Positions 6,793 to 39,383 of a DNA stretch of 64,000 bases are shown one piece after another. This stretch comes from Bradyrhizobium ontarionense (GTDB taxonomy: Bacteria; Pseudomonadota; Alphaproteobacteria; Rhizobiales; Xanthobacteraceae), in NCBI RefSeq assembly GCF_021088345.1, contig NZ_CP088156.1, positions 6,324,001-6,388,000 of the forward strand, in the 5' to 3' direction. Within the stretch, counting starts at the first letter, position 1. Each line of letters starts with the position of its first letter. A program made the translations under genes and the position numbers. The notes below the pieces were generated by a model. It saw only the letters and a program-made list of their open reading frames with translations, was not told the DNA's origin and searched no databases.

Positions 6793-8415
6793 CTACCCCT
6801 TCACGAACTGCCGATAATCCGGCTCGCGGTGGAACCAGAACTCGTAGCCGCTGACCGCCTTCTGCATCGCGACGTCGTGGATCGGCTGGTTGAGCGGGAC
6901 GACCGGCACCTCGCGCATGCACAGCGCGATGAAGTCCTTCACCGTGCTCTCATACTCCGCCGCATCCGCCGTGAAGCGCGCCTTCTCGATCAGCGCGTCC
7001 ATCTCCTTGCTCTGGTAGGACGAGATGTTGAAGATCGAATTGCGGCCGTGGAAATTCCAATAGAAGTAGTATTCGGGATAATCGAGCCAGCCGCTGAACC
7101 TGTTCAGCGCCATCGGCAGCTCCTTCTTGTTGAGCGTCGTGCGCCAGTTGGCGCCGGGGATCTTGTCGATGCCGGCCTTGATGCCGATCTTGGCGAGGCT
7201 CTCCTGGATCAGGATCGCGGTGGGCTCGCCGACCGTTGCGGTGCCGGCATCGAGCGACAAGCTCGTATCGAGGCCGGCTTCAAAGCCGGCCTCCTTCATC
7301 AGCGCCTTGGCCTTGTCGAGATCGGTCACATAGGGGAACGGCTGCGGCCATACCGGCTTGGTGACCTCGCTTGCGCCGCCATGCATCGGCACCGCGCGGC
7401 CAAAGAACGCGCTCGACTGGATCTGCTCATAGGGCATCGCCCAGGCGATCGCCTGGCGCAGCTTGACATTGTCGAATGGTGGCTTCGCCGTATTCAGTGC
7501 GACATACCACAGCGCATTCGGGATCGGCACGCCCGTGACCTTGACCTTGCCCTCCTTGATCAGCTGGTCGAAATCGCGCGGCGCGAAGCCGCTGGAGAGA
7601 TCCGCGTCACCGCGCTCGAGCATGGCGCGGCGCGTGCCGGCGGAGGGAATGTCGCGCGCGATCACGCGCTTGATCTTCGGCAACGGTCCGCATTTCCAAT
7701 TGTCGAACCGGCTCAGCACGGTCTCGGTGCCCGGCTTCCAGCTCTCGACCTTGTAGGCGCCGCCGCCGGCCTCGTTGTTCTTCAGCCACGTCAGCGCCCA
7801 CGGGTCCTCCGCGGTGACATTCTTCTTGGCGAGCTCCGAATTGATGATGAAGGGCACGACCACCGCGACGTTGAACAGCAGCATCTTGTCCTTGCGGATG
7901 TAGTCGATGCGGAAGGTGTGGTCGTCGACCGCCACGAACTGCTCCGGCTTCTCCAGCGATCCCGCCGACATCTGGAACGTCGGAAAGCCGCCGACCGAGA
8001 CGGAGCGGTCGAACGACCATTTGACGTCTTTCGCCGTGACCGGCGTGCCGTCGTGGAAGGTGGCCTCCTTGCGCAGCTTGAAGGTGCAGGACAGGCCGTC
8101 CGCTGCGACCTCCCAGCTCTCGGCGAGCTCCGGCGCCAGCGCGGCGCGGTCATAGGACGTGGTGCCGTCGGGCAAGGTCTTCGCGGCATAGCTGAGCAGC
8201 CGGTCGTAGCAGTTCCAGGCGAGTCCGTTCACGGTCTGGTTCGAGCCGATACCCTGCATGTCCAGCGAGTTCGGTCCGAGCTCCTGCACCACCAGCAGCG
8301 TCTCGGCGCGTCCCTGCGACCACGCGATGCCAGGTGCCAGCGTGGTCAGTCCGGCGGCGCCCAATCCCGCGAGCAAGACGTTGCGGCGTGTGACGTCGAA
8401 ATCCGAGCTGCTCAT
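6793..8415 (-). CDS. ABC transporter substrate-binding protein, family 5 (peptide/nickel type), Tat-exported
   Basis: Periplasmic binding protein of the SBP_bac_5 (DppA/OppA/NikA) family, 540 residues, a normal length. The N-terminus has a twin-arginine-like signal: [19 protein letters not shown], then a probable cleavage after AWS. The body carries family hallmarks such as [21 protein letters not shown] and LRQAIAWAM. The ATG is preceded by a strong GGGAGG. No permease or ATPase genes of the same system lie beside it: the neighbours are convergent corA and a divergent SDR. It is therefore an orphan binding protein or is served by a distant transporter. The ligand (oligopeptide, opine-like or other) is unknown. 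Confidence 0.9.
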
Positions 8416-13805: not shown

Positions 13806-14579
13806 ATGCGAATGCTCGCACGTCGAAGCGTTTTGAGCGGCGTCGCCGGTCTCATTTTCTCGTCTCCATCGCTCGCGCGAACGACCGCAGAGCTTCGCGT
13901 AGACGACTCGGAGGGCGGCGTAGCGTTGACCCGCTACGCGGCTGCCGGGGCCGGCAAGCGCCCCGGTGTTCTGATTCTCCACGGCGCGCGCGGTGTCGAG
14001 CTCAGGCGCCGCGCCTATGAGCGCTATGCCGATGCATTGGCGTCGGCCGGGACCGATGCCTACCTGGTCCGCTATTACAGCCCGGCGGACGATCGCGCGC
14101 TGGCGACGATCACCACGCGCGAGCAGCGGGTGGCCTACCAGACCGAGCGCTTCGATCGCTGGTTCGAGCGCGTGTCATCCGCCGCGACCGCGATCCTGGC
14201 GCAGCCGGAGAGTTCCGGGCGCGTCGGCCTGCTCGGCTTTTCGCTCGGGGGTTATGTCGCCGCCGGGACTGCGGCCCGCGACAACAGGTTTGCTGCGCTC
14301 GCGGTGCTGTATGGCGGGATGCCGGACAACGCCGCCTCTCGCGTGCGGCGTTTGCCGCCCCTGCTCGAACTTCATGGCGATGCGGATCAGAACGTGCCGT
14401 TGGCGCGGGGTGAGGCCTTGGTCAAGCTCGCGCGGGCGGTCGGGGCCCCGGCCGATCAGGTCATCTATCCCGGACGAGCCCATGGCTTCGATTTTTCGGA
14501 CGATGATCCGATGGCGGCGGACGCCACCGATCGCGTCGTGCGCTTCTTCCGGACCCGGTTGCAGGCCGCGCGGGAATGA
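13806..14579 (+). CDS. Dienelactone hydrolase family protein, exported
   Basis: Alpha/beta hydrolase of about 257 residues. The N-terminus looks like a Tat-type signal (ARRSVLSGVAGLIFSSPSLA), so the enzyme is probably periplasmic. After the HGARG oxyanion strand comes the nucleophile elbow Gly-Phe-Ser-Leu-Gly-Gly, with Ser where classical dienelactone hydrolases have Cys; the acid is in HGDADQNVP and the His in RAHGFDF. Three starts are close together (GTG 13803, ATG 13806, ATG 13812); the last has the best spacing from AAGAAG. The substrate is unknown; a carboxylic ester or lactone is likely. Confidence 0.85.
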   Translation: MRMLARRSVLSGVAGLIFSSPSLARTTAELRVDDSEGGVALTRYAAAGAGKRPGVLILHGARGVELRRRAYERYADALASAGTDAYLVRYYSPADDRALATITTREQRVAYQTERFDRWFERVSSAATAILAQPESSGRVGLLGFSLGGYVAAGTAARDNRFAALAVLYGGMPDNAASRVRRLPPLLELHGDADQNVPLARGEALVKLARAVGAPADQVIYPGRAHGFDFSDDDPMAADATDRVVRFFRTRLQAARE

Positions 14580-29348: not shown

Positions 29349-29424
29349 GCCCAGGTAGCTCAGTTGGTAGAGCATGCGACTGAAAATCGCAGTGTCGGTG
29401 GTTCGATTCCGCCCCTGGGCACCA
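29349..29424 (+). tRNA. tRNA-Phe (GAA anticodon)
   Basis: Full cloverleaf of 76 bases including CCA: acceptor GCCCAGG/CCTGGGC, D-arm GCTC-AGTTGGTAGA-GC, anticodon arm TGCGA-CTGAAAA-TCGCA (anticodon GAA, phenylalanine), T-arm GGTGG-TTCGATT-CCGCC, discriminator A and encoded CCA. It marks the left border of the accessory region. Confidence 0.97.
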
Positions 29425-29482
29425 CGCTTCGCCCTTCGGGCTACGCGTGGCGCAGCCGCGCAGTGGCCCGAAGGGCGAAGCG
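29425..29482. repeat. Perfect 17-bp inverted repeat directly after tRNA-Phe
   Basis: Arms CGCTTCGCCCTTCGGGC (29425-29441) and GCCCGAAGGGCGAAGCG (29466-29482) are exact complements with a 24-bp spacer. The pair starts at the base after the tRNA's CCA. It could terminate or process the tRNA transcript, though there is no U-run. A further partial copy of the sequence follows (about 29486-29515). Confidence 0.75.
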
Positions 29483-29657
29483 TGCCCGGCGAAGCCACTT
29501 GGCGTAGCCGGGCGTGTGAGCCCCGCTTGCCCGCGCCTGAGCTGCGCTCTCTGATCCCAATCAACCCTGTCAAACAGCCTGCCGCTTCTTCGCAGCCTTG
29601 CTCACGGCCATGCCGCCGCGATCTCGCGGCCTGATAGGCCCGAGCTCTGCTGCAGTT

Positions 29658-30031
29658 GGCGTCCTCTTCGGTTGAGAGGGCGCGGGGAAGGCCGGGTGCT
29701 GGTCGCACCCGCGGTCCGCGTGCAGCAAGAAAGCACGCGGCAGAACCACAGGTACGGCCGAACATCCGGCCTTCCCCGCGCGATGGCTTTACGGCTTATA
29801 CGCGATCTCCCCGGGGACCGGCTGTCTTGCCCCCGTCGCCCGCTGCGCTCGTCATGAACGCCGCGACCTTGGCGCCAGCATCGGGACGCCAGGACCACGC
29901 GACTTCGCCGTCCGCACCTCATCAGTCGTCGCGCAAAAGCGCCTGACGAAGCCGCGGCCATCGCATCCCCGCCTCACGTGCCGTGACGATCGCGATACGT
30001 CCCTCTCGGCGAAGCAGGATGGCGGGATAAG
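29658..30031 (-). repeat. Dispersed ~400-bp structured repeat, copy B
   Basis: Reverse-strand homologue of 17285-17685. On the minus strand it reads CGGACGGCGAA, GTGGTCCTGGC, GGGGGCAAGA, GCGTATAAG, CGTAAAGCCATCGCGC, then a GGAAGGCCGGATGT / ACCCGGCCTTCC hairpin. Together with the small inverted repeat above, it accounts for most of the 831-bp gap between tRNA-Phe and the next gene. The remaining 30032-30255 shows nothing I can name. Confidence 0.7.
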
Positions 30032-30255
30032 ATCACTGATTTGGGGGCGGCGTCAAGATTTTTTCTGGTATTCGGAAGTTTCGGTCTGAGCCGTTGCCTT
30101 GCCGCGGCACATCGGTCGTCGTGTTGGCCGCCATCAAACTCACGGATGATGTCGACCTGCCTCCCGAGCGCGACGAATCATCGCTCGGCGCTGACCAGAA
30201 ACACGCGGCGAGAAAAGTGCATCGTCACCGTAATCGAAAGAGACACCGGATAACC

Positions 30256-32012: not shown

Positions 32013-32195
32013 ATGAGAGTCCTGACACAAGCCGAGATTGCCCGCTTAACGAAAACCGAGCTGCACGCGCTGCTGCGCGTGATCGCGGGCGAACTGCCGC
32101 GCCTGCCGGAGAATTCTCCGGAGCTGCGCGCGGCGCACTTTAATCTGCGCAATATCCGCCTCGCTCTCGCGCGGCCCGAATACAGGCCGCGTTGA
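32013..32195 (+). CDS. Small conserved hypothetical protein
   Basis: A 60-residue protein starting MRVLTQAEIARLTKTEL, with GAGGAAGAA upstream of the ATG (an in-frame ATG four codons earlier is possible). The sequence predicts two helices, ending in RAAHFNLRNIRLALARPEY. Short proteins of this design recur in rhizobial mobile regions as far as I recall. Function unknown. It lies 138 bp upstream of the two-gene nuclease unit on the same strand. Confidence 0.6.
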   Translation: MRVLTQAEIARLTKTELHALLRVIAGELPRLPENSPELRAAHFNLRNIRLALARPEYRPR

Positions 32196-32332: not shown

Positions 32333-33982
32333 ATGCAGGCAGAGACAGCATGGGTAAAGCCGCCCTTTCAAGTCGGCGGCCTCGATCATCTTGCGGTGCA
32401 AGCAACGTGCATAAATATATACGGACGTTTGCTGCCCGGAATTACGAATGTCACGGACAGAGCCCGGTATTATTCCTTCTACCCGTGGCTGATATGGGCC
32501 TTCGACAAGGCTGGGCATCGCGAATTTAACGACAATTTCGTCGAGCGCTTTCGCCGGGCCGATTGCTTGTTTTGCCTGGTTTCGCAGCGTCATGCCGATG
32601 TGTGTGGGGACGATGCGGACGATCACTCGGCGGCGATGGTGGGTAGCGACACCCTTGCGGACGTGGCAAGGGCGTTGGGAGCAGATGGTGTTATACGTCT
32701 ATCTGACTTTTCGTTGCGTGAAGGAGCGAAGAAACGTTATTTCGCGAACAAACTCGGGGGGCTCGGACAGTATTATCTCGGCGTTCTGAGGGAGCTTTCG
32801 ATCATTGACGGTGATGCGACCGCCGGCATTCGTTACACTCGGCAGCTGGGATCTGTGATCGCGGAACAAATGGATTGCAGCGTCAATCGCGCGCTTTTCA
32901 TGGAGGCGGTAGACACGGATCGGGTTACGGCAGCGGAGCTCGATGCCCTGCATGGCTTTTGCCCCTGCCAACTCTGCAACAACCCGGGCGAACAAAAGAT
33001 ACTTGGCGAACTGTTTTTTGTCCGGGATCGCTTCCGTGACACGGAGGCCCTGCCGCGGCAGAGATCGCTTAAAATAATTTTGCAGCTTGCCGATCTGCTT
33101 TACGCGAAGGGCGAGCAACTGTCCGAGCCATTGTTTCGGGCCTGCATATATTCAGGCAGCCTGCCGGGGGGAACTCCTTGGGCTGTGCCTTCCGCCCTCG
33201 CGAATACGCGAGAAAAATGGGCGATCTATGCTCGCAATGAGCTGCTGTCGATTGCCGTTCAAGGACTCTTCTATGCCTTGCTCGATGCCTACGAAGCATC
33301 CGGCCTACGGATGGATGCAAGTACCGATATCGCAAATTGGTTCACGGAGCAGCGTGAAGTTCTTGAAGCTTTGGACGAATTGGGCCAGCAAAGAACGTTT
33401 TCGGAATGCGTTGCAGACAGTAAGAGTTGGTTGCCTGCGCTGGCGGACTGGAGCGAGAAAATGCATGAAGTGCAGCTGACGGAACGGATCGCTGCACTCT
33501 CGCGTGGGATCAAGTCCGCCGAGAACCGCAAGCAAATCGTGTCTGCGGCTCTGAAAACGTTGATAGCGCTCGCGCGCAGAACCAATTCCGCGGATCGGCA
33601 ATATGCCGATCTGGTCTTTGAGCCGGACTATTTCCGATATTACCCGATCAATCTTGAGTCATTTGCCCGTCACGTCTCGGGAAGCTGGGCGTCTTCGACA
33701 ATTGGGGAAGTGCTCCGATGGCTCGCGATTAACTGGGGCCTGGAGATACATCTGCGCGTCGCCTTAAGGAAATTGAGAGGGCAATCGCAATCTACTTTCA
33801 GGATACGGCCCTCTGATCGCGGCATGGAAGTGATAGCAATTCCGCCCGCCGTTCACACAAGGCCGCGCTTCAATCAAGCGGTTCGGGTGCTTAAGGATAT
33901 CGGCGCACTTGAAAAGGCCCCGCTGGGCTGGCAGCTCAGCCCTATTGGGCGAGCGCAATTCGAGCTTGCAGATGCTCAATAA
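32333..33982 (+). CDS. Uncharacterised 549-residue protein, partner of PLD-type nuclease
   Basis: I do not recognise a named family. The start is the ATG after GGGGACAATTATTT; an in-frame TTG six codons earlier is possible. It opens PPFQVGGLDHLAVQATCI and continues ITNVTDRARYYSFYPWLIWAF, a strongly patterned N-terminal region that looks conserved. A cysteine cluster, Cys-Pro-Cys-x2-Cys, lies near residue 210 (GFCPCQLCNNPGEQ) and could bind a metal. The C-terminal 100 residues look like a winged-helix fold (FNQAVRVLKDIGALEKA, WQLSPIGRAQFEL), suggesting nucleic-acid binding. The gene overlaps the next one by 11 bases, so the two products are made together. GC content is well below host genes. 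Likely a recognition or regulatory subunit (inference). Confidence 0.8.
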   Translation: MQAETAWVKPPFQVGGLDHLAVQATCINIYGRLLPGITNVTDRARYYSFYPWLIWAFDKAGHREFNDNFVERFRRADCLFCLVSQRHADVCGDDADDHSAAMVGSDTLADVARALGADGVIRLSDFSLREGAKKRYFANKLGGLGQYYLGVLRELSIIDGDATAGIRYTRQLGSVIAEQMDCSVNRALFMEAVDTDRVTAAELDALHGFCPCQLCNNPGEQKILGELFFVRDRFRDTEALPRQRSLKIILQLADLLYAKGEQLSEPLFRACIYSGSLPGGTPWAVPSALANTREKWAIYARNELLSIAVQGLFYALLDAYEASGLRMDASTDIANWFTEQREVLEALDELGQQRTFSECVADSKSWLPALADWSEKMHEVQLTERIAALSRGIKSAENRKQIVSAALKTLIALARRTNSADRQYADLVFEPDYFRYYPINLESFARHVSGSWASSTIGEVLRWLAINWGLEIHLRVALRKLRGQSQSTFRIRPSDRGMEVIAIPPAVHTRPRFNQAVRVLKDIGALEKAPLGWQLSPIGRAQFELADAQ

Positions 33983-36521
33983 AATCTCGCTGATCGACGA
34001 ACTGAAGAAGGGCGGCTATGAAGCTTCGCTGATTACCACCTACAACGCTTATCTTCCCTTCTATGAAGAGGTGGTACTGCGGCGGCTCGCTAATGCCGGT
34101 GTCCGGCACAATGCTCTGCTGATGGATGCTCAGCAGTACGCGGCATCGCTCATCAGCCACCCGCCCCGACTTGCCGGCCGGCAATACACCCTTCTGCCCG
34201 TGAGCGTACCGGGAGCATTTCATCCAAAACTGATTTTCCTGGCGGGCAAGAGCAAAGGAGCGATACTCGTCGGCAGTCACAATATGACGCTTGCGGGCTT
34301 TGGATTTAATCGAGAGATAACAAACCTCGTTCAAATCCGGGAAAAGGACACGGCAGGAATTAACCTTGCTCAGGACGTCTGGAAGGAAATCGAATTTTGG
34401 CTGAATGACTTTACGGTTGGTGTTCCCGACCACGTCCGATCCATGATCCGCCGGGTCAAGGAATTCGCGCCCTGGCTGAACGGATCACCATCTGCGGACC
34501 CGAAAATCAGGTTACTTGCGGGACGCCCAGGTGGAACGCCCCTATGGCAACAGTTCACTGGGCTCTTGGACGGCGAGACCTCTCAATTTTCGGCGGGCGG
34601 AGCGTTCTTCGACCAGGAATTGAGTTTTCTCAAGCGCGTGAAAAGGGATTTGCAGCCGGGCAGGATAACTGTGGCGGTCGATCCCAAGACGGTTCAGATG
34701 CCTGTTCAGGCTCAAGCTCTCGAAGGCATGACGTTTGTCCAGGCGGGGCGCATTGGCTGTGACGAGAAATCCGACGAACCGTATCTCCATGCCAAGTTTG
34801 TCTTGGCGCAGCAGAAAGAAGGAATGTCCGTTTTTGCATCGGGCAGCGCGAACCCCAGCCGGCCCGCATGGCTGGCCGACGATGCCGGTGGCAACGTCGA
34901 GCTGATGCTCGCCCGCATTGGAGACGATGCTCTCAAAACGGCCAATTCACTCGGCTGCAGCGATATACACACCTTCCCGACCCTGACCCAAAAAAACTGG
35001 GAAGAGATTTCTATAAATCAGACTCAGTGGGAAAAAGCTCCTGCCACAGGCATACGTAGCGGTGTCGCTTTGGCGGAAGCAACACGCATCTTGTTCGACT
35101 TGGACTTGCTGAAGGGTTTCCGCGATTTGACTTTCGCGATAATTGCCGCTGATGGGAGCGCAATCAGTAATTCCGTTGACGTCGCTGTTGAGGATCGCTT
35201 CGCGGTCTTGAATTTCGCGACAAACGACATCGAAAAAGCCATCGCTCTTCAAGGATTCGACGCGAGCAAACTTGCATTGAATCTTGCCCTTCATCATGCG
35301 GGGATAGTCGAGGAGCAAGCCCGAAGCGGAACGCAGCGACGCCTTAGAGATGCTCTCGCGAGCCTAGACACCGACAGTCCGGATATCTCACTCCTGATTC
35401 AGTGCATCGATAAGATAGTTTTTGACGAGGACGACCCAGCCGCTGCGGCCCAGCCGGCGAAAAGGGCAGGTTCACGAAATTCGCAGCAGCCAACTGGACC
35501 CGATTCCGTTGCAACGCTGGAAATCGATGTCAGCGAAATGAGAAAAGGCGGAAAAAGGCAGCGGCTCAATCATTCTAGCGATTTCGCCTATTTGCTCGAT
35601 GCACTGATCTACCACTTGCGCCTGCATCAGGACAAATCACGCGAAGAGCTTGACCGGTTTGGCCGAACTGAAGAAGAGCAGATCGGCGCGGACGACGATC
35701 CTGACGCGGAAGTCGCTCTCACGCCGGACAAGCAGGCTGAGCTTCTGGTCGCGTGTCATTCAAAGGTCCGCACTGTTGTGAACAGAATGATTTCACAAAT
35801 GAAGGCCTACGCTGAAGGGAAGGTGGCACTTACCAAAATACTTATCCGTCTTCTGGGAGTGCTGGCCGTGCTCAGAGAGTTGCGGTCATGCGATGGCCGT
35901 GCCGCCTGGATCGAAAAGGGTAAAACAGCGGTGCCTAAAGATCAGCGACTGCGCCTCCTGGAAGCAGTCATGCTGAATATTTTTGAGCGCGAGCCGTCAA
36001 CGTCGTCGCTGCTTAGTCTTGAAGCGCTCGGAGAGGAGTTTAGTGAAAGTGATGACGTAGCCCGTCTGAAAGGATTGCTGTTGTGGCTGGCATGGGACTG
36101 TGGCCTGACCCTGAATTTGCATAAGCCATTCAGGGAGAGTCCGGAGGCGTGGGAGCAAAGACTGAAGCGGAACGCCATGATCGTTGCACTCGCACAGGTC
36201 ATACTTTCAGACGAGACCGTTATCGATGAGGCGCGGGAAAGTATCGGAAGCTTCACTGCAGGCGAACTGGACTGGCTAAGGGACATTCGTCGGTTGGCGG
36301 ATAGTTTCGCCACCCTACGCGCCGATAAGGGGGCATTGCGGCGGGGTGAATTGGCTGAAGCGGGTGACATCGCGTTCCATAAGACAGCCGAAGACTGGAT
36401 TGTCCGTATGGTTGCGGGCCGGAATGGCGGCAAAATTTCGCTCGTGGCTTTGAAAGAGAACAGGCCCCGGCTCACCTATCTGGCAGACCACCTTGCTGTC
36501 GCTTCACTATCGTCGGTATAG
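33972..36521 (+). CDS. PLD-like nuclease-domain protein, 849 residues
   Basis: The N-terminal 330 residues form a phospholipase-D-like domain with two HKD half-sites: His84-Pro-Lys86 with Gly-Ser102-His-Asn104, and His273-Ala-Lys275 with Gly-Ser292-Ala-Asn294. Two half-sites in one chain suffice for an active site; the Asp of the full HxKx4D is absent in both, as in several PLD nucleases. The remaining 500 residues are helical and unrecognised, with a charged low-complexity linker (DDPAAAAQPAKRAGSRNSQQ) near 480-500 and acidic EEEQIGADDDPDAE near 570. No helicase or ATPase domain is seen. The ATG at 33972 overlaps the upstream gene by 11 bases. In an island beside a HEPN-like gene, phage or plasmid defence is the likely role (inference). 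Confidence 0.85.
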   Translation: MLNKISLIDELKKGGYEASLITTYNAYLPFYEEVVLRRLANAGVRHNALLMDAQQYAASLISHPPRLAGRQYTLLPVSVPGAFHPKLIFLAGKSKGAILVGSHNMTLAGFGFNREITNLVQIREKDTAGINLAQDVWKEIEFWLNDFTVGVPDHVRSMIRRVKEFAPWLNGSPSADPKIRLLAGRPGGTPLWQQFTGLLDGETSQFSAGGAFFDQELSFLKRVKRDLQPGRITVAVDPKTVQMPVQAQALEGMTFVQAGRIGCDEKSDEPYLHAKFVLAQQKEGMSVFASGSANPSRPAWLADDAGGNVELMLARIGDDALKTANSLGCSDIHTFPTLTQKNWEEISINQTQWEKAPATGIRSGVALAEATRILFDLDLLKGFRDLTFAIIAADGSAISNSVDVAVEDRFAVLNFATNDIEKAIALQGFDASKLALNLALHHAGIVEEQARSGTQRRLRDALASLDTDSPDISLLIQCIDKIVFDEDDPAAAAQPAKRAGSRNSQQPTGPDSVATLEIDVSEMRKGGKRQRLNHSSDFAYLLDALIYHLRLHQDKSREELDRFGRTEEEQIGADDDPDAEVALTPDKQAELLVACHSKVRTVVNRMISQMKAYAEGKVALTKILIRLLGVLAVLRELRSCDGRAAWIEKGKTAVPKDQRLRLLEAVMLNIFEREPSTSSLLSLEALGEEFSESDDVARLKGLLLWLAWDCGLTLNLHKPFRESPEAWEQRLKRNAMIVALAQVILSDETVIDEARESIGSFTAGELDWLRDIRRLADSFATLRADKGALRRGELAEAGDIAFHKTAEDWIVRMVAGRNGGKISLVALKENRPRLTYLADHLAVASLSSV

Positions 36522-36830
36522 GGGCAAGCGAAGGTCGCGTTCGACCGCGCCCTTGCCGAAACGCGTCCGGAGGCGCGGATCACGCAGGAGAGGATCGCTT
36601 AATTCGTCGGGGTCATGCGGACGAATGTCCCGACGGGCGAAACGCCCTTCCGGAGGGCCTACATCCGAGTCGAGGTCGATCAGGTCGAGGTCGATGAATC
36701 CGCATCATCGGCAGGCGGACCGTGCTGGAACGCCTCGCGCCTCGTCATGGGCGGCGGGGTGATTCCGGCCGGAGTGCTCAGGTTTGCTCGCAAGTGGCGC
36801 ACCCGACATGATTCGAACGTGTGGCCTTAG
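36522..36830 (+). pseudogene. C-terminal remnant of a serine site-specific recombinase
   Basis: The frame reads AFDRALAETRPEARITQERIA, an in-frame TAA at 36600-36602, then FVGVMRTNVPTGETPFRRAY and VDQVEVDE, resembling the end of large serine recombinases. After that the expected IRIIGRRTVLE is found only in another frame, before the tail LVMGGG and RKWRTRHDSN returns. So at least one stop and a frameshift have killed it, and everything upstream (catalytic domain) is gone, replaced by the nuclease gene whose stop is adjacent. The last codons lie inside a tRNA-Arg remnant, as expected for a recombinase next to its attachment site. Confidence 0.65.
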
Positions 36831-36858
36831 CCTTCGGAGGGCGACGCTCTATCCAGCT
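36795..36858 (-). pseudogene. Truncated, decayed tRNA-Arg (CCG) remnant; probable attachment-site scar
   Basis: On the minus strand, AGCTGGATAGAGCGTCGCC leads to the loop CTCCGAA (anticodon CCG), then GGCTA where GGCGA is expected, T-arm ACACG-TTCGAAT-CATGT with one mismatch, and acceptor CGGGTGC-G-CCA. The first 13 or so bases of the tRNA (5' acceptor strand and D-stem) are missing. This is the usual shape of the 3' tRNA fragment left by a genomic island, here with two point mutations. The intact tRNA-Arg must lie outside the window. Confidence 0.75.
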
Positions 36859-38879: not shown

Positions 38880-39383
38880 TCACGGGAACAGCGGATTGCC
38901 GGTCGCGATGCCGCCGACCGGCGCGCCCAGCGCGGCGACCGCGTTGGCCCCGATGCAGCAGATCTGATCGCAATTGGCGTAGGTGATCGACTGCGGAAAT
39001 GCCGCGACGGGGCCATGGACAAGCTCGTAAGCAGTGCCTCCGCTCCGGCCATGCGTCGCACTTCCGAGCCGATTGAATAGCACGAAATCATGATAGTCGC
39101 TATCGGCCAGGACGAAGGTGAGATGCTCGCAGGCCGCAGCCAGATCCCGGTCCATGTCGTAGCTCAGCACCGCCGCGACGCCGGTGGCGTGGGACGGCAG
39201 GTTTCTCACCTTCTGATTGGCCCATTGCTGGGCCTGATGCAGCGTCGTGGTGACATAGAAGCCCTGGCCGAAATCGGCGGCGCCGCGTCCGGCGCGCGGG
39301 TTGATGCCATGGCTCACGATCAGCTGCGCATTCGCCAGCGTCGTCCCGTGATAGACCCGCGCCGGTGCGTTGCTCCAAGCCAC
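38880..39383 (-). CDS. DUF3990 family protein (ADP-ribosyltransferase-like)
   Basis: A 167-residue protein whose N-terminus, VYHGTTLANAQLIVSHGI followed by GADFGQGFYVTTTLHQA-type spacing, matches DUF3990, a family with the ADP-ribosyltransferase fold: the His-Gly-Thr and the Phe-Tyr-x-Thr segments correspond to the first two parts of the NAD site. The third (Glu) part is not obvious; Asp-rich DSDYHDFV may stand in. A GTG start is used (GGAG upstream). DUF3990 proteins are usually encoded with small partners and are considered toxin-like; activity is unproven. Confidence 0.8.
   Translation of the reverse strand: MAWSNAPARVYHGTTLANAQLIVSHGINPRAGRGAADFGQGFYVTTTLHQAQQWANQKVRNLPSHATGVAAVLSYDMDRDLAAACEHLTFVLADSDYHDFVLFNRLGSATHGRSGGTAYELVHGPVAAFPQSITYANCDQICCIGANAVAALGAPVGGIATGNPLFP

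Follow-up and report, generated by a model that had tools for sequence, protein, structure and literature searches.

Nucleases of the phospholipase D (PLD) type are known in several defence systems, and DISARM usually carries such an endonuclease, DrmC, as far as the accessible part of one source tells (PMC12458937). The available sections of three further papers describe BfiI, with the active-site residues H105/K107/N125/E136 (PMC4081073), CglI, in which a PLD nuclease works with a separate helicase-like protein subunit (PMC5737866), and AgaP, a PLD protein that acts in defence with an Argonaute partner (PMC11442185). PADLOC also holds two candidate models with a PLD-type component: ZacABC, made of a DUF6361 protein, a PLD-type protein and a helicase, and PDC-M27, whose B component is a PLD protein and whose C component is a helicase. 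ZacABC and DUF6361 were nowhere mentioned in the open-licence literature that we searched. Here we analyse a stretch of 64,000 nucleotides of the Bradyrhizobium ontarionense genome (contig NZ_CP088156.1, positions 6,324,001 to 6,388,000; hereafter the window), which contains two overlapping genes, A and B; among the matches listed from the open-licence literature, no paper describes this pair. We propose, with reasonable rather than high confidence, that A and B work as a single unit, a mobile defence module of two genes directed against phages or other foreign DNA. The co-occurrence of the two genes and their neighbours in defence clusters suggest that A-B is probably a little-studied defence unit.

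Gene A (32333..33982) encodes 549 amino acids and gene B (33972..36521) encodes 849, both on the plus strand, as are all their features given below. The original prediction, made by reading the letters of this DNA, had described two genes that overlap by 11 bases and are lower in GC than their surroundings, and both statements hold: the frames are open and intact, the overlap spans 33972..33982, and the GC fraction is 0.53-0.56 in the 1-kb blocks between 32001 and 36000, while most blocks of the window lie at 0.62-0.71. Translational coupling of A and B through the overlap is likely. Each gene occurs once in the genome, a single contig of 8.4 Mb.

Homologues of the two genes stay together, and neither gene matched a characterised family with a housekeeping role. 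Two peptide patterns in a motif of A (see below), used with A alone, retrieved 47 genomic loci; because the loci were retrieved by these patterns, relatives lacking the motif are missed. B lies directly downstream of A in 39 of the 47; among these, L040 has it split into two frames, and in L024 and L045 the contig stops within it. Of the remaining eight loci, four (L036, L039, L043, L051) match A only in part and four (L042, L047, L048, L052) lie at contig ends. Six more non-redundant genomic loci, each with the pair, were reached via A (L069, L074, L075), via B (L072, L073) or via ZacA (L076), which brings the total to 45 non-redundant genomic pairs. Two weak A matches (L059, L061) showed no B match within the 3-kb stretches examined. 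On plasmids, B adjoins A in eight of nine records with A, and the ninth contains just a fragment of A, with an unrelated gene after it. The two proteins also diverge together: over 48 pairs the pairwise distances of A and B correlate at 0.956 without correction for shared ancestry, against 0.23 for the best of 2000 permutations. This comparison left out the eight loci without a full pair named above, L070 and L071 (treated as duplicates of L022 and L032), and L024, L040 and L045, where B is partial or broken.

The pair also occurs in reversed order and in distant bacteria. On the Rhizobium plasmid L106 (6061-10079) the order is reversed, B then A, with profile matches of 1.2e-7 for A and 2.8e-18 for B. 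A distant pair occurs in Myroides (Bacteroidota; A profile 2.4e-30, B profile 1e-31), and two occur in Actinomycetota, in Streptomyces (A only 1.4e-4, B 1.7e-27) and in Miltoncostaea (A only 1e-5, B 1.8e-22). A is rare, with any match at all in 7 of 398 genomes of the phylum, the present one included and one match short and weak, and none among 50,697 phage records.

In many relatives the pair stands in a known defence operon or next to one. HsdM-like genes were found by tblastn in the flank examined near 10 of the 45 pairs (L017, L018, L023, L024, L030, L034, L037, L046, L049, L072), where the density of HsdM_N matches in 100 genomes (106 in 370.7 Mb) predicts 0.17. The control is a Pfam profile search on those 100 genomes, whereas the loci were scored by tblastn, and close relatives occur among the loci (L023 and L037 are one case); a Poisson P near 5e-15 is therefore too small a figure, and the ratio of 10 to 0.17 is what counts. 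Two further loci (L029, L040) have an HsdR-like gene only. The gene order in L017 and L018 is HsdM, HsdS, a PDC-S14-like gene, a protein with a PIN-domain counterpart in L016, A, B and HsdR, and the annotation in Myroides reads methyltransferase, subunit S, A, B, subunit R. In L016, short HsdM (82%) and HsdR (61%) remnants, at 8184-8300 and 14215-14346, flank a retained pair that is accompanied by PDC-S14-like and PIN genes, so that the restriction genes were apparently lost there and A-B retained.

Other partners recur as well. DrmMI or IIG-like methylases lie near 10 of the 45 pairs, nine found via tblastn and one in L076, and six of the nine also have a SNF2 gene; only L013 and L076 were scanned with PADLOC, the other assignments being tblastn matches to the L013 methylase, weak (23%) in L045. 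UvrD-type helicases lie near 6 of the 45 and, as common paralogues, are weak evidence of association. On plasmid pPNAP01, a Zorya-like operon of ZorA, an OmpA protein, an EH-signature protein and a SNF2 protein is followed directly by A-B. BilD stands 1.1 kb upstream in L006, the closest genome relative, and in L035 a Dsr1-like gene stands immediately upstream of A. For 16 of the 45 pairs none of the counted partner types was found in the flank examined; among these, L010 has a PDC-S48-like, L044 a caspase-like and L011 a NERD-domain neighbour. Judged by eye, the partner types are scattered across the A tree.

B belongs to the PLD enzymes of the nuclease-like H-x-K/N/E type, and its single chain contains two complete half-sites. 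Its match to Pfam PLDc_2 (E 2.4e-6, 27.9 bits) is barely above the cut-off of 27 bits. Relatives of B align over 100% of its length, with identity falling from 96% to 38% among the best 120 listed, and relatives of A do so with identity falling from 89% to 50%; in both cases some listed rows cover the query only in part. Since the PLDc_2 score lies above the cut-off and both proteins have full-length relatives, the PLD assignment of B is not due to chance. The structure model (pLDDT 84.6, pTM 0.74) has a two-lobed PLD fold within one chain at residues 1-355 (33972..35036) and a helical C-terminal half, of which residues 585-845 (35724..36506) are predicted to be helical with a small C-terminal beta part. 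The eight residues on which the original prediction had based its single-chain active site (His84/Lys86/Ser102/Asn104 and His273/Lys275/Ser292/Asn294) are indeed in place. Each set is completed by an acidic residue, giving a first half-site of H84, K86, S102, N104 and E115 (34221..34316) and a second of H273, K275, S292, N294 and E310 (34788..34901).

Conservation of these residues is nearly complete in an alignment of 62 rows that includes fragments and two duplicate loci. The first half-site is kept in 48 of the 48 rows with a residue there, except for K86 (47 of 48), and the second in 46 of 46. The sole deviating row, L028, has Arg in place of K86 and keeps all remaining site residues. Counted from His, the offsets are +2, +20 and +31 in the first half-site and +2, +21 and +37 in the second; the spacing of H84/K86/N104/E115 equals that of H105/K107/N125/E136 in BfiI, as given in the available part of PMC4081073. 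The nearest folds to B include TDP1 and PLD3/4, and lipid PLDs and the viral F13 protein also match. No B3-like domain, the kind that binds DNA at the C-terminus of BfiI and CglI, was among the fold matches for residues 360-849, a part barely probed by the whole-chain search.

A is a mostly helical protein (structure model pLDDT 89.2, pTM 0.89) for which the Pfam scan matched no family and the fold search no convincing structure. The original prediction had placed it in no known family; this stands as far as Pfam goes and needs amending for one short motif, residues 35-52 (PGITNVTDRARYYSFYPW; 32435..32488), which aligns with the DUF6361 stretch of ZacA and ties A weakly to that family. Within the motif, R43, R45, Y46 and Y47 are invariant, being the same in 57 of the 57 rows having a residue there; RxRYY was looked for in three more distant A proteins and not found. 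The predicted Cys-Pro-Cys-x2-Cys cluster is present at residues 210-215, with the CPC at 210-212 (32960..32968), and only its first two cysteines are conserved: of 50 rows with a residue, C210 is kept in 41 and C212 in 40, and position 215 is Cys in three, the window protein among them. Judged by these columns, the cluster is not a conserved zinc site. The C-terminus had been called winged-helix-like, which agrees with the secondary structure predicted for residues 457-544 (33701..33964; H457-483, E491-494, E497-500, H513-522, E526-529, E532-535), without a fold match to confirm it. This region has the conserved basic residues K480 (45 of 45 rows with a residue), R479 (43 of 45) and R482 (41 of 45).

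The unit, the fold, the active site and the genomic context described so far are computed results, and on them we propose the following mechanism. B would cut DNA without a metal ion, a single strand each time, using a covalent histidine step like that of BfiI. A would be a targeting or licensing subunit whose C-terminal region may bind DNA or a DNA structure, and it would keep B inactive until foreign or damaged DNA appears. As far as their available sections go, CglI (PMC5737866) and AgaP (PMC11442185) offer precedents for the control of a PLD nuclease by a partner. In many relatives the module is lodged in a partner operon: type I restriction and DrmMI/SNF2 operons contribute both a DNA motor and a methylase, the Zorya-like kind a motor. 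These partner operons would probably supply the DNA or the self/non-self signal. In this genome no such partner stands beside the module, which would either sense alone or borrow a motor of the host. We infer the defence role, the nuclease activity of B and the targeting or restraining function of A from these results, and they support the central idea of the original prediction, a candidate pair for defence or DNA processing.

A bolder extension, which we find rather doubtful, is that A-B is a portable executor cassette common to unrelated motor-driven immune systems (type I restriction, Zorya-like, DrmMI/SNF2 and Bil-containing), with A as a new adaptor family that reads a shared DNA intermediate, such as a stalled or displaced strand, and that in some lineages, including this one, the cassette works alone. 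If this is true, several immune systems that have so far been studied separately have the same strictly paired nuclease module as a neighbour, which in type I restriction operons even lies inside, between hsdS and hsdR. Such recurrence would suggest that these systems share a downstream step. A-B would also give a first handle on the DUF6361-like motif.

Mobility is supported by the plasmids, as four of the nine plasmid records with A are conjugative, and by a strain-variable segment in this genome. Colinearity with other genomes of the genus, judged among the matches listed (all 40 genomes, the present one included, gave some match), stops at 29424-29431, at the end of a tRNA-Phe gene (29349..29424, plus strand, ARAGORN). 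On the right lies a partial tRNA-Arg(CCG)-like copy of 67 bases (36792..36858, minus strand), a possible right-hand scar that is 94% like the intact gene elsewhere in the genome (G000:C1:5399236-5399299). Because colinearity stops at the tRNA-Phe end and the tRNA-Arg piece lies on the right, we place A-B in a strain-variable segment that starts at 29425 and may end near 36790; its right edge is only a candidate, since in the genus genomes the aquaporin gene beyond it matches elsewhere. The original prediction had spoken of a recombinase scar. No recombinase was found among the few small frames scanned, and the partial tRNA-Arg copy is what may represent the scar. To the right of the tRNA-Phe gene, the matches listed belong to a dispersed repeat at about 29606-30067, with copies at six other listed places within this genome and further ones elsewhere in the genus.

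To the left of the pair, the 181-aa HEPN-like protein, which had been linked to the pair, reaches 16.8 bits with AbiU2, under the cut-off of 26.8, and neither its gene (at 1e-6) nor a 288-aa left-neighbour gene gave a tblastn match in the loci searched. For this reason their membership in the unit is unsupported and the suggested HEPN link falls away. A 60-aa open frame without a Pfam match (32013-32195, plus strand) lies 137 bases upstream of A. Just beyond the low-GC segment, a 167-aa protein encoded at 38880-39383 on the minus strand matches DUF3990 (8.4e-15), with a PARP-domain match under cut-off, and from this resemblance is a possible ADP-ribosyltransferase. As to partners, the window gave no match to Helicase_C, UvrD, N6_Mtase, HsdM_N or Eco57I, other helicase, ATPase and methylase families not having been searched. 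The predicted lack of a helicase or methylase thus holds for the families searched in the window and does not extend to many relatives, where such genes stand beside the pair. For Helicase_C, the nearest match lies about 91 kb beyond the window, and the five HsdM_N and five N6_Mtase matches of this genome are all outside it.

The strongest rival, which we judge unlikely, is a toxin-antitoxin-like abortive unit, in which A keeps a toxic nuclease B inactive and phage infection frees B to destroy the nucleic acid of the cell. It would agree with A being encoded first and overlapping B, with the strict co-occurrence and co-divergence of the two, and with the toxicity of AgaP, the PLD protein of the Argonaute system, when alone, as stated in the available part of PMC11442185. 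The reversible gene order speaks against it, and the position between hsdS and hsdR in some relatives suggests work with restriction instead. Antitoxins are also typically small, unlike A with its 549 residues and many invariant columns.

Two further possibilities are less probable still. First, B could be a TDP1-like phosphodiesterase of DNA repair or end processing that removes adducts or trims ends, with A bringing it to the damage. TDP1 and PLD3/4 are among the nearest folds, and UvrD-type helicase genes lie near 6 of the 45 pairs. The patchy spread (7 of 398 genomes, counted as above), the carriage on plasmids and the association with restriction operons make repair a quite improbable role. 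E115 and E310, one after each N, fit BfiI instead; TDP1 is not known to have this acid. Second, the pair could be a decayed remainder of a larger ZacABC-like or restriction operon, inactive here. The window without a match to the helicase and methylase profiles named above, and L016 with its restriction remnants around a kept pair, would be consistent with this. Yet both window genes are intact, all catalytic and invariant residues checked are kept, and L007, L009 and L069 of the same clade likewise have no restriction gene in the flank examined, so that we give decay just as small a chance. That B is instead a phospholipase D attacking membranes in an abortive response is highly unlikely, as the folds shared with lipid PLDs and the viral F13 protein are countered by the BfiI-type H/K/N/E pattern and by the neighbours of several relatives, which act on DNA.

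Having favoured a two-gene defence module over these alternatives, we compare it with the known systems. BfiI, CglI and NgoAVII are PLD restriction enzymes with an H/K/N/E site spaced as in the first half-site of B; BfiI builds its one site where two chains meet, as the available part of PMC4081073 describes, whereas a single B chain carries both half-sites. AgaP differs in having HxK and GSxN about 50 residues apart, according to the accessible text of PMC11442185, and no Argonaute domain was seen in A, as A has no Pfam match. In type I restriction, hsdM, hsdS and hsdR stand beside the pair in relatives, and in the window neither HsdM_N nor N6_Mtase had a match; for Zorya, zorA was seen beside the relative on pPNAP01. 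Some relatives adjoin DrmD/DpdE-like SNF2 and DrmMI-like methylase genes, DrmD and DrmMI being those of class 1 DISARM, yet B matches DrmC at only 0.0082, and the helicase (DrmA) and class methylase of DISARM were not found in the 64-kb window, where Helicase_C, N6_Mtase and Eco57I had no match and other methylase families were not searched. As for PDC-M27, PDC-M27B matches B at 5.5e-8 over residues 82-126 and the SNF2 neighbour in L014 matches PDC-M27C, with no PDC-M27A match to A and no Helicase_C match in the window.

ZacABC likewise has an A-type protein beside a PLD-type protein. In the class, strong ZacA matches occur in 6 of 385 genomes, and the seventh, weak one is the A-B pair L076. 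Both ZacA proteins scanned with Pfam are DUF6361 (PF19888), which A itself does not match up to E 1. The adjoining protein is PLD-type by its HxK and GSxN-like motifs and by profile comparison; in Pfam, one of two such proteins scored 22.6 bits (cut-off 27) and the other had no match. In L077 and L078, a UvrD helicase with PD-(D/E)XK (by Pfam in L077, by tblastn in L078) is encoded upstream of ZacA, ZacB and a helicase, as is a further PD-(D/E)XK protein in L077; we take these upstream genes to resemble AddAB. No ZacC helicase was found beside the window pair, and ZacC-like matches lie elsewhere, one of them 206 kb away.

ZacA matches A at E 3.5e-4 over 45 residues (43 of 396 positions), short of a full-length DUF6361 match, and the five aligned ZacA proteins have 392-412 aa against 549 for A. 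Profile comparison with hhalign gave 42 columns at 38% identity and a probability of 62, and the stretch PG..T.R.RY..F.PWL is common to both. ZacB matches B at E 4e-12 in two stretches, the best covering 75 of 586 positions, and the profile comparison joins them over the second PLD half only, with a probability of 71. PADLOC thus already has remote candidate models of the A-B kind; the original prediction, which had called the system undescribed, must give way to this extent, B being a remote relative of ZacB and PDC-M27B. On these alignments, we read A-B and ZacA-ZacB as probable distant kin, two two-gene modules of related build rather than members of one system.

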